Shown here: one piece after another, positions 2 to 3,790 of the stretch
Layout of the letters: the number at the start of each line of letters is the position of its first letter
Numbering within the stretch: the stretch's first letter is position 1
Source of the DNA: Clostridia bacterium
Lineage (GTDB): Bacteria; Bacillota; DULZ01
Assembly (NCBI GenBank): GCA_012512955.1
Contig: JAAZDD010000161.1
Span: 1 to 32,921, forward strand
Direction: 5' to 3'
Length of the DNA stretch: 32,921 nucleotides
Notes under the pieces: model-generated
The model's input: the letters and a program-made list of their open reading frames with translations, nothing else
Told to the model about the DNA's origin: nothing
The model's database searches: none
Translations under genes and position numbers: made by a program

Positions 2-1603
2 ATCTTGTTTCCCGGAGGATCCCTGACGGGAGGCAGCCACAAGAAAGTGGGAAGCGGTCTTTTAGGCAGAAACCGGGAGATTGGGGAACAGAAAAACCAG
101 TTGCGTAAATTGGAAGCCAAGGAGAGGGAACTTCAGCAAAAGCTTCGGGAAATGCTGGAGCATAAAGCTGACCTGGAAAAGCAATGGCAGCAGCTGGGTG
201 AAGAAAGCAGTAGGCTGGAAATGGAGATCGCCCGCCGGGAAGGAGAAAGAAGCAGGCTGAAAGGGGAGTTGGCTCAGCAGCAAAAGTTAATGGAACAGGG
301 CCGTTGGGAGGAAGAACAGCTAGTGACGGAAGAGAGCCGGTGGCAACGCCAACTGGCTGAAGTGGAACAAGCAAAGGCTGTTGCCGTAGCGGAAAGGGAG
401 GAGATCAGCCGGCAACTGGGGCAAAACAAAGCTAAAGGAGCCCGCCTTGAGGAACAGATCCGGTCTTTGACAAACCGCTTGACGGAGCAGAAAGTTCAGT
501 TGGCCGCTCACCGGGAGAAGTTGCGCTCCCTGGAAAGTTCTCTGAGTTATTACCGGCAAAATCACCAGGAAGCCCTGGAAGCAAGTGAACGCTTGAAACG
601 GGAATTAAACCAATTGGTTGAGCGGAAAGGGTTGCTTAATCAATCTTTGGCTCAGTTGGAGGAACAGGAGCACCTGTTGCTCCATGAATGTCACCGGATG
701 GACGGCCGGCTAAAGAACCTGGCCGTCCAGGTACAGGAGGCCCAGGCTGATGTGATTGGCTTGGAAAGGCAAGTAGGGCAGTTGGCCAAGGAACTTAAAG
801 ATTTGAAAGAACAGCATCACCAGGTGGCCATGCAGCTGACCCGGTTGGAAGTGGAATGGGATAATGCCGTGGGCAGACTCGGGGAAAAATTTCAATTGAC
901 CTGGGAGGAAGCGAAAGAAAAGCAGGTGCAGTTAACTTCCCGGCGGGAGGCGGAGAACCGGGTCAGGAGTTTGCGAAAAATGATCGACGGTCTTGGTTTG
1001 GTCAATCCCAACGCCATGACCGAGTATCAGAAGCTGGAAGAACGTTACCGGTTTCTCAAGAACCAGCAAGAAGACCTGTTGGAGGCCAGGGAAGGGTTGT
1101 TCAAAATTATTGCGGAAATGGAAAAGATCATGGGCCAAAGATTTAGGCAGACATTTAAGGAAGTGGAGAACGCTTTTCAGGAGGTATTTGCTTATCTCTT
1201 CGATGGGGGCAAAGCAGCATTGGAGTTAACGGATGGAGATAATCTGTTGGAATGCGGCATAGAGATCATTGCCCAGCCTCCCGGGAAGAAAATGCAGCAC
1301 TTATCCCTGCTGTCTGGAGGGGAAAGGGCTTTGACAGCTACTGCCCTTCTGTTTGCCTTGCTGAAGGTGAAACCAAGCCCCTTCTGTGTACTGGATGAAA
1401 TTGAAGCTAATTTGGATGAGACCAATGTGGACCGGGTGGCCAAATACTTAAGGCAGTTTGCCCAGCAGACTCAGTTTATTCTGGTGTCTCACCGCCAGGG
1501 AACTATGGAAGCAGCCGACGCTCTCTATGGGGTGACCATGGAGGAATCCGGGGTTTCCCGGTTGGTGTCCGTCCGGCTGACGCCAGCGGCGGAAGTTGGT
1601 TAG
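2..1603 (+). CDS. smc: Chromosome segregation protein SMC, C-terminal part (5' truncated by window edge)
   Basis: Long coiled coil followed by ABC-type C-lobe: LSLLSGGERALTATALLFALL and Walker B/D-loop FCVLDEIEANLDETNV; frame open to the window start. Confidence 0.95.
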   Translation: MLFPGGSLTGGSHKKVGSGLLGRNREIGEQKNQLRKLEAKERELQQKLREMLEHKADLEKQWQQLGEESSRLEMEIARREGERSRLKGELAQQQKLMEQGRWEEEQLVTEESRWQRQLAEVEQAKAVAVAEREEISRQLGQNKAKGARLEEQIRSLTNRLTEQKVQLAAHREKLRSLESSLSYYRQNHQEALEASERLKRELNQLVERKGLLNQSLAQLEEQEHLLLHECHRMDGRLKNLAVQVQEAQADVIGLERQVGQLAKELKDLKEQHHQVAMQLTRLEVEWDNAVGRLGEKFQLTWEEAKEKQVQLTSRREAENRVRSLRKMIDGLGLVNPNAMTEYQKLEERYRFLKNQQEDLLEAREGLFKIIAEMEKIMGQRFRQTFKEVENAFQEVFAYLFDGGKAALELTDGDNLLECGIEIIAQPPGKKMQHLSLLSGGERALTATALLFALLKVKPSPFCVLDEIEANLDETNVDRVAKYLRQFAQQTQFILVSHRQGTMEAADALYGVTMEESGVSRLVSVRLTPAAEVG

Positions 1604-1659: not shown

Positions 1660-2799
1660 GTGAAAGAAATCAAAGGCATTGCCCATTTCCTGGTGGAGCA
1701 AATGGTTGAGCGGACCAGAGCCTTAGGACAGGGAAGAAATGTGGGCTGTTTCGGTTTTGTGGATGAAGACGGCTATATTTCTTCTCATACGGAATTGGTG
1801 GATGGGGGCTTAAGCGGTATTCCCTTACGGGTTTTATTGGGAAAAGTGGCAGTGATGGAGCATAATTCCATTATTGAAGGTTTGAAACAATTGCCGGAGA
1901 ATGCCGTGTTTATCACGACTCGTCCCGGTAAAACGGGACTGATCACCGATGTGACGGGAGTGGATTTTTTCAATTTGCCGGTGGTCAGTATCGGAGTAAA
2001 GAATGACGGGGTAGCCGGAATTGGCCTGATGATGCCCAAGCCCCGCCATTATGATTTGGCTACGGAGGCAGAGAAACTTAACCTGGAAACTTTGGACACT
2101 GATACCATGGAAGCGGAAAGAGAGGTCCTGCGCAAGACCAATGAATTGGGGTTGGCTTACCTGGAATTAAGTGAAAGCCTGGAAACGGTGGATCTACCTG
2201 AAAAACCGCCGGTCTGCCTGGCGTCCCGGAAGGACTATTGGCGTCTACCCAGAAGAAAGGTAGAGGCTTTGAACGGGGAATTGGCCAAAGAATTGGTGGC
2301 CAAATCTATCTCTATCGGTCAGGGACGTGAGGTGTCCGTGATGGGATTATTGGATGAGCAGGGAACAGTCCAGCCTTTAGGGAAAATCATCGCAGGAGGT
2401 ATGGGGTTTGTACCTGCCAGGTTGATGGCTTCCAGTGCGGCGGATATTGAGGGCAAGTCCCTCCGGGAAATCTACGGAGAGCTTTTGCCCCCCAATGCGG
2501 TGATTGTCCACACCCATCCCGGAGGAACCGGTGTCATGCATGTGGGAGATGCCAGCGCCGGCCCCGGTACCTGGGGACGGCCCATTGTGGCTATAGGCCA
2601 TGATCAGGACGGTGAGATCAAAGGAGCTACCGTCATTGAAGTAGAGGACCGTCTTTACCGGCTGGCTGATGAGGATGAAAAATTGAACCTGGCTTTCTTC
2701 GAGGCAGGTACTCCCGAAGCGGAAGCGGACATCAGGAATCGGAAATTTGGGATTGCCCAGGAATACACCGGATTGTGTAAACCCATTGAGCTGGTCTAG
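1660..2799 (+). CDS. Two-domain protein of unknown function; internal tandem duplication with JAMM/MPN-like HTHP-x9-D motif in C-terminal copy
   Basis: GTG start with strong SD. Copies (about aa 10-170 and 205-370) align: GQGRNVGCFGFVDEDG / GQGREVSVMGLLDEQG; LPENAVFITTRPGKTG / LPPNAVIVHTHPGGTG; PVVSIG / PIVAIG; EKLNLETLDTDTMEAE / EKLNLAFFEAGTPEAE. Confidence 0.8.
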   Translation: MKEIKGIAHFLVEQMVERTRALGQGRNVGCFGFVDEDGYISSHTELVDGGLSGIPLRVLLGKVAVMEHNSIIEGLKQLPENAVFITTRPGKTGLITDVTGVDFFNLPVVSIGVKNDGVAGIGLMMPKPRHYDLATEAEKLNLETLDTDTMEAEREVLRKTNELGLAYLELSESLETVDLPEKPPVCLASRKDYWRLPRRKVEALNGELAKELVAKSISIGQGREVSVMGLLDEQGTVQPLGKIIAGGMGFVPARLMASSAADIEGKSLREIYGELLPPNAVIVHTHPGGTGVMHVGDASAGPGTWGRPIVAIGHDQDGEIKGATVIEVEDRLYRLADEDEKLNLAFFEAGTPEAEADIRNRKFGIAQEYTGLCKPIELV

Positions 2800-2814
2800 G
2801 GCTTGTGGTAAAAT
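2786..2814 (+). promoter_or_regulatory. Putative sigma-A promoter for ftsY: TTGAGC - 17 bp - TAAAAT
   Basis: -35 TTGAGC 2786-2791, 17-bp spacer, -10 TAAAAT 2809-2814. Confidence 0.5.
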
Positions 2815-2818
2815 TATG

Positions 2819-2855
2819 AGGCTGGGGTCGGAAAGACCTTAGCCTTATCTTTTTA
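2819..2855 (+). terminator. Hairpin AGGCTGGGGTC-GGAAA-GACCTTAGCCT followed by TATCTTTTT; intrinsic terminator or attenuator
   Basis: 11-bp stem (two G-U pairs), 5-nt loop, U-rich tail; lies between gene 1660-2799 and ftsY and immediately downstream of the putative promoter at 2786-2814. Confidence 0.65.
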
Positions 2856-2869
2856 AGGGGGTTTTTGAT

Positions 2870-3790
2870 GTGGGATTTTTTGAGAAATTGAAAGCAGGCT
2901 TGGCGAAAACCAGGGCAGGTTTTGTGGATAAGGTCAATACGCTGGTGACGGGCAGGACCAAAATCGATGAGGAATTCTATGAAGAATTGGAAGAAATTTT
3001 GATCCAAAGTGATGTAGGAGTGGAGACCACCTTAAAATTGGTGGAACAAGTAAAAGCATCTGCCAAGGAAAGAAAGGCAACCAGCGGTGAGGAAGTTAAA
3101 GATATTCTAAAGGAAGAAATAGAGAATATTTTGAGTGCCAAAGATAGCAGCCTTAACTTCCAGGAGGACGGGCTAACGGTGATCATGGTGGTAGGTGTCA
3201 ACGGAGCAGGTAAAACCACCACCATCGGCAAATTGGCCGCCAATTTCAAGAGTGAAGGGAAAAAGGTACTCCTGGCCGCGGCAGATACCTTTAGGGCGGC
3301 AGCCATCGAACAGTTGGAAATCTGGGCAGAGCGAAGCGGTGTAGAATTGGTTAAACACCAGGAAGGTTCTGATCCTGCGGCTGTGGCCTTTGACGGGTTG
3401 AAGGCAGCTCAATCCCGCCAGGCAGACGTGCTGATCATTGATACGGCAGGGCGCCTACAGAACAAGAAAAACCTGATGAATGAGCTGAACAAAATATTCC
3501 GGGTATTAAATCGGGAGGCGTCCGGAACACCCCATGAGGTATTGCTGGTCATTGATGCCACCACCGGACAAAATGCTTTGTCACAGGCCCTGGTCTTTAA
3601 AGAAGCCGCCAATGTGACGGGGATTGTCTTGACCAAATTGGACGGCACAGCCAAAGGAGGGGTGATTATTCCCGTGGCGGATCAGTTGCAGATCCCGGTG
3701 AAGTTCGTGGGTGTCGGTGAAGGGATTGACGATTTAAAACCCTTTGATGCCAAAGATTTCGTGTCTGCTTTGTTCAGTGAGGAAGGTTAG
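2870..3790 (+). CDS. ftsY: Signal recognition particle receptor FtsY
   Basis: GTG start after AAGGGGG; SRP GTPase motifs GVNGAGKTTTIGKLA, DTAGRLQNKKNLM, TKLDGTAKGG, and C-terminal GVGEGIDDLKPF. Confidence 0.97.
   Translation: MGFFEKLKAGLAKTRAGFVDKVNTLVTGRTKIDEEFYEELEEILIQSDVGVETTLKLVEQVKASAKERKATSGEEVKDILKEEIENILSAKDSSLNFQEDGLTVIMVVGVNGAGKTTTIGKLAANFKSEGKKVLLAAADTFRAAAIEQLEIWAERSGVELVKHQEGSDPAAVAFDGLKAAQSRQADVLIIDTAGRLQNKKNLMNELNKIFRVLNREASGTPHEVLLVIDATTGQNALSQALVFKEAANVTGIVLTKLDGTAKGGVIIPVADQLQIPVKFVGVGEGIDDLKPFDAKDFVSALFSEEG

Follow-up and report, generated by a model that had tools for sequence, protein, structure and literature searches.

Genomic context

The window analysed here, a stretch of 32,921 nucleotides from a Clostridia bacterium, carries between smc and ftsY an open reading frame preceded by a good to strong Shine-Dalgarno sequence (Table 1). 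Its product, a protein of two JAMM-like halves, is called the double JAMM-like protein below, and its halves the N-copy and the C-copy. A predicted hairpin at 1606-1664 (-20 kcal/mol, z -2.6) would pair the Shine-Dalgarno sequence of the gene with an upstream CTCCTCTG.

Table 1. Coordinates of the features discussed, in window positions.
Feature	Position	Strand	Remarks
smc, C-terminal part	5..1603	+	Conserved upstream neighbour; 35 of 37 loci with room
Double JAMM-like protein gene	1660..2799	+	379 aa, GTG start, TAG stop
N-terminal copy	1666..2190	+	Residues 3-177; degenerate, E/H/H ligands lost
C-terminal copy	2257..2793	+	Residues 200-378; JAMM-like domain, E/HxH/D signature intact
E224 codon	2329..2331	+	Predicted general acid/base (JAMM Glu); invariant 41/41
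H284-T285-H286 codons	2509..2517	+	Predicted zinc ligands (H[ST]H); invariant 41/41
H294 codon	2539..2541	+	Position of the JAMM catalytic Ser; His 41/41, versus Ser 31/31 in HflX-N
D297 codon	2548..2550	+	Predicted third zinc ligand; invariant 41/41
H314 codon	2599..2601	+	C-copy-specific second extra His; 41/41, and 29/30 in the other alignment
Promoter-like TTGAGC-17-TAAAAT overlapping the end of the gene, with palindrome/hairpin before ftsY	2786..2848	+
ftsY (SRP receptor)	2870..3790	+	Conserved downstream neighbour; 37 of 37 loci with room

In bacterial ubiquitin-like conjugation operons, JAB genes stand beside E1-, E2- or Ubl-type genes. The neighbours found in the window are ffh, ylxM, rpsP, smc, ftsY and a deaminase-like gene, and the flanks of relatives were compared against these only. 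Within this set the smc-ftsY arrangement is conserved, Formimonas and Carboxydocella being the exceptions for smc among the 37 loci. The divergence of the double JAMM-like protein tracks that of FtsY (r = 0.85, 38 loci), as expected from vertical inheritance. Such an arrangement agrees with a housekeeping function connected with translation or targeting. By itself the synteny shows no functional link, and part of it may be due to the ftsY promoter, which reaches into the end of the JAMM gene. In many lineages (many of loci L031-L048, and L069) a promoter-like TTGAG/TGnTAAAAT is conserved there, and after it a palindrome, GGTTAAGG...CCTTAACC; the exact GGTTAAGG-loop-CCTTAACC palindrome occurs once per genome, just downstream of the JAMM gene, in four of the five genomes checked. 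The element at 2786-2848 is a neighbouring feature and does not belong to the protein; it has no match in Rfam, and its palindrome may serve ftsY as an operator or as a hairpin in the 5' leader.

An internal duplication with one intact signature

The protein is an internal duplication. Its halves align over about 175 residues with a local BLOSUM62 score of 222, compared with a best score of 64 in 1000 shuffles, and the family profiles of the two copies match each other with a probability of 99.9 (E 6e-32). A first-pass annotation, made from the letters of the window alone, had already described halves that align along their length, and every residue number that it cited is correct.

The JAMM motif is written EXnH[S/T]HX7SXXD (PMC300881). 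The C-copy carries H284-T-H286 and D297 at exactly this spacing (H-T-H-x7-H-x2-D), with His for Ser as the one exception, and E224, the counterpart of the upstream catalytic Glu of JAMM/MPN+ proteins, lies 60 residues ahead of the HxH. No substitution of E224, H284, H286, H294 or D297 occurs in 41 sequences reaching down to about 42% identity, nor in an alignment of 30 sequences; T285 and P287 are likewise invariant in the 41. The cognate positions in the N-copy vary freely in the same 41 sequences, with 10 residue types at N27, nine at T86 and five at R88, so that the contrast between the copies noticed in the one sequence holds across the family. It had also been claimed that all four putative ligands are gone from the N-copy. 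For the Glu and both His this stands; the fourth position is D97, not a Thr, in the gapped alignment of the halves, where the residue facing D297 depends on how the alignment is made. Only 23 of the 41 sequences have Asp at position 97, so the N-copy Asp is not maintained.

Predicted fold and relationship to known JAMM families

None of the protein-family databases consulted (Pfam, NCBIfam, PHROGs) recognises the double JAMM-like family. Neither single-sequence nor profile searches of these databases and of PDB sequences returned a match to the 379-residue protein, and none of 27 family members matched Pfam Prok-JAB, RadC or JAB above the curated cut-off; the Pfam comparison proposed in the first-pass annotation thus gives no direct match for the protein or its C-copy. 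No description of the family was found in the open-access literature.

Structure prediction is more informative. AlphaFold2 models of the whole protein (27 relatives; mean pLDDT 94.2, pTM 0.90) and of the C-half alone (35 relatives; mean pLDDT 94.3) resemble JAMM/MPN domains, which make up nearly all of the best 50 Foldseek matches in the PDB for either model. The top matches include Pyrococcus JAMM1 with SAMP2, Rpn8/Rpn11, BRCC36, CSN5, the bacterial BubCD and AMSH, and the best 50 contain no deaminase. The E-values are modest (best 3e-3 for the whole model and 1e-3 for the C-half, with TM about 0.3-0.5), which makes the fold match, taken by itself, good but short of overwhelming.

A sequence route to JAMM was found through HflX. 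The C-copy profile weakly matched three open reading frames of about 610 residues. These encode HflX GTPases extended at the N terminus by about 195 residues (HflX-N), which no Pfam or NCBIfam model covers. A profile of three HflX-N sequences recovers the double JAMM-like family in four genomes, that of the window included (E 5.7e-6 to 6.7e-5). In hhalign, C-copy and HflX-N align with a score of 45.9 (E 9e-7; maximum of 25.1 in 60 column-permuted controls), and HflX-N and RadC with a score of 47.0 (E 3e-7; permuted maximum 21.3). In the PDB, HflX-N finds JAMM deubiquitinases of the AMSH type (E 5e-4), and at a lax limit of E 1 single members match Prok-JAB in 14 of 25 cases (best E 3e-4) and the RadC model in 8 of 25 (best E 5e-4). 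This bridge is needed because the C-copy aligned directly to Prok-JAB scores at noise (18, permuted maximum 20) and to RadC only suggestively (26, permuted maximum 20). In the alignments displayed, the catalytic residues stay in register along the chain from C-copy through HflX-N to RadC, Prok-JAB and AMSH, E224 aligning with the invariant HflX-N Glu and with the Glu of the RadC RE-H motif. Homology of the C-copy to known JAMM families is thus shown, indirectly, by way of HflX-N, and what had been a by-eye JAMM assignment now draws on this chain, on the invariant E/H/H/D residues and on the predicted fold.

Could the site nevertheless be something else? A metal site unrelated to that of JAMM, housed in some alpha/beta fold (cytidine-deaminase-like or other) and resembling the motif by chance, would agree with the fact that no curated model matches the protein directly, and JAMM itself shares a deaminase-like topology (PMC300881). 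However, the structure matches are JAMM proteins and include no deaminase among the best 50, and the homology chain reaches RadC, Prok-JAB and AMSH with the catalytic residues in register. This reading is already disfavoured and we consider it very improbable.

HflX-N is the closest sequence relative detected, with the NRE/REI Glu, the HTHPxG[ST]G, the x2-D and the A[IL]G strand in register. It differs in being a single copy fused to HflX, with the canonical Ser in place of His294 and mostly Val in place of H314; the JAMM-motif Glu, HTHP, Ser and Asp are invariant in 31 HflX-N domains. RadC (PF04002), a bacterial JAMM protein with RE-H and HNHP motifs that the C-copy matches weakly, has HNH instead of HTH, retains the catalytic Ser and contains one JAMM domain; the genome of the window encodes a separate RadC. 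The archaeal JAMM1 proteins (PfJAMM1, AfJAMM) share the ligand spacing and provide the best fold match of the whole model (5lda, PfJAMM1 solved with the ubiquitin-like protein SAMP2), but they are single domains with Ser.

Long HflX GTPases of the Bacillota, that of the window's genome included, thus carry an unannotated N-terminal JAMM domain (G000:C252:1689-2204, which is locus L148; L143-L172), and no description of a JAMM domain on HflX was found in the open-access literature. Among 250 genomes, 34 carry the double JAMM-like protein, 46 carry HflX-N and 18 carry both (Fisher p 7e-7, a value that ignores kinship); the denominator assumes that both searches drew the same genomes, and the enrichment is not taken as evidence of a functional link.

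A Ser-to-His switch in the C-copy

We favour, with a probability of about 0.7, the reading that the protein is a single-chain pseudo-dimer in which the C-copy, a predicted active-type JAMM zinc hydrolase, is joined to a putative pseudoenzyme partner, the N-copy. The JAMM pseudo-dimer is the well supported part. A zinc hydrolase is likely, and confidence is moderate to weak that it is a peptidase or isopeptidase and that it is linked to targeting or translation. E224 would act as the general base and H284, H286 and D297 would bind zinc. With zinc, E224 and H294 the C-copy would most likely hydrolyse a peptide or isopeptide linkage, and its role would be a housekeeping one connected with smc/ftsY, a locus of protein targeting and translation.

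The place of the catalytic Ser in SxxD is taken by His in all 41 sequences, as the first-pass annotation had noted in one, so membership of the C-copy in the MPN+ class is incomplete. A second extra His, H314, lies at the end of the following strand, where most N-copies and HflX-N domains have Val (IGV), for which reason H294 and H314 appear to be derived in the C-copy. An invariant His at the JAMM Ser position together with a second invariant His is new here. What could His294 do? According to Ambroggio et al. (PMC300881), Ser77 of AfJAMM, beside the oxyanion hole, stands at the place of the side-chain nitrogen of thermolysin His231. By analogy, a His at this position could do the same work as His231: it would replace the oxyanion-stabilising Ser and yield a thermolysin-like arrangement.

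The main rival is a JAMM-derived protein that is no longer a peptidase, in which H294, and perhaps H314, would be an additional metal ligand and create a saturated or two-metal site for metal sensing or other chemistry. Both His are invariant in the family at positions where HflX-N has Ser and mostly Val, and the JAMM Ser is essential in CSN5, whose activity is abolished by S128A (Ambroggio et al., PMC300881), so that its loss could mean a loss of peptidase activity. On the other hand, E224, the catalytic Glu that hydrolysis requires and metal binding alone does not, is invariant as well, and the thermolysin residue with which the Ser position is equated, His231, is itself catalytic (PMC300881). 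We give this rival roughly a one-in-five chance, substantially less than the favoured reading.

A degenerate but constrained N-copy

The N-copy lacks the metal ligands in a JAMM-type fold and is otherwise conserved, as MPN- partners are. It retains QGR (Q24-G25-R26), GGxxGxPxR, TxPGxTG (87-93), G90, G93, G112, K114 and E138, among others. Mean identity is 62% in the C-copy and 52% in the N-copy, compared with 21% in the linker, and in a same-genus pair dN is 0.10 against a saturated dS of about 1.8, with both halves low (N-copy dN 0.096). The N-copy is under strong purifying selection; with both halves constrained, some function maintains the dead copy. In the pseudo-dimer it may act as a structural or stabilising partner, or as one that positions the substrate, as MPN- subunits do for MPN+ enzymes.

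Conserved motifs that are not catalytic could also belong to a protein in which both copies are pseudoenzymes, used as a scaffold for binding at SMC or at the SRP receptor. Such motifs are strongly conserved in both copies (QGR, GGxGxPxR, TxPGxTG), and the locked smc/ftsY synteny would agree with this role; but a scaffold gives no reason for E224, H284, H286 and D297 to be invariant while the N-copy loses its counterparts, and we think it improbable.

Distribution and inheritance

Of 399 genomes drawn from across the phylum, 40 carry an orthologue, under about 17 family labels, and both copies are always present: in each of the 40 carriers the C-copy profile finds exactly two strong matches within a single open reading frame, and no single-copy version of the protein. 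A second scan, of 84,980 species genomes, yielded 40 loci in Thermincola, Carboxydocella, Formimonas, Orenia, Natroniella, Halanaerobiales and uncultured Clostridia or Bacillota; because it required strict peptide motifs, distant relatives elsewhere could be missed. The best explanation is that the duplication preceded the spread of the family in deep Bacillota lineages. A contig labelled Candidatus Nealsonbacteria (L055) has an smc-JAMM-ftsY locus of the Bacillota type and was probably assigned to the wrong bin.

Two paralogues, full-length but diverged (about 42% identity), lie outside the smc-ftsY locus in Orenia and Halonatronum (L065:5004-6128, L066:4998-6125). They keep all motif residues of the C-copy, and their neighbours are unrelated (transport, PTS) and give no functional hint. 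No relative turned up in the phage, plasmid and viral collections, so there is no support for a role in mobility or defence.

A putative active/dead JAMM pair in one chain

Discussion of paired active and dead JAMM domains usually centres on eukaryotic complexes (Rpn11/Rpn8, CSN5/CSN6, BRCC36/KIAA0157), and eukaryotes employ such pairs in ubiquitin removal. These pairs are among the top fold matches, but they consist of separate chains in complexes and have the catalytic Ser, whereas the bacterial protein is one self-duplicated chain with His in its place. The Rpn11/Rpn8 analogy drawn in the first-pass annotation survives as a logic; the halves come from a duplication inside the family and do not correspond by descent to the eukaryotic subunits. 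The protein would thus resemble an MPN+/MPN- pair in its working and not in its origin.

If so, the one-chain bacterial version would show that active/dead pairing evolved more than once, and a single polypeptide would offer a simple system for testing why an inactive copy is required. The invariant exchange of Ser for His likewise makes a 20-year-old analogy, between the JAMM Ser and thermolysin His231, directly testable. The unannotated domain on HflX, a ribosome-splitting GTPase, suggests that ribosome and targeting factors of bacteria have a JAMM group attached to them. More speculatively, there may be a JAMM clade devoted to translation and protein targeting, with an HflX-fused branch that keeps the Ser and an ftsY-adjacent duplicated pair with a thermolysin-type His; this is a tentative idea that we hold to be rather less probable than its opposite. 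Were it true, nature would have run an experiment in JAMM catalysis, and active/dead pairing would have arisen independently in this clade.
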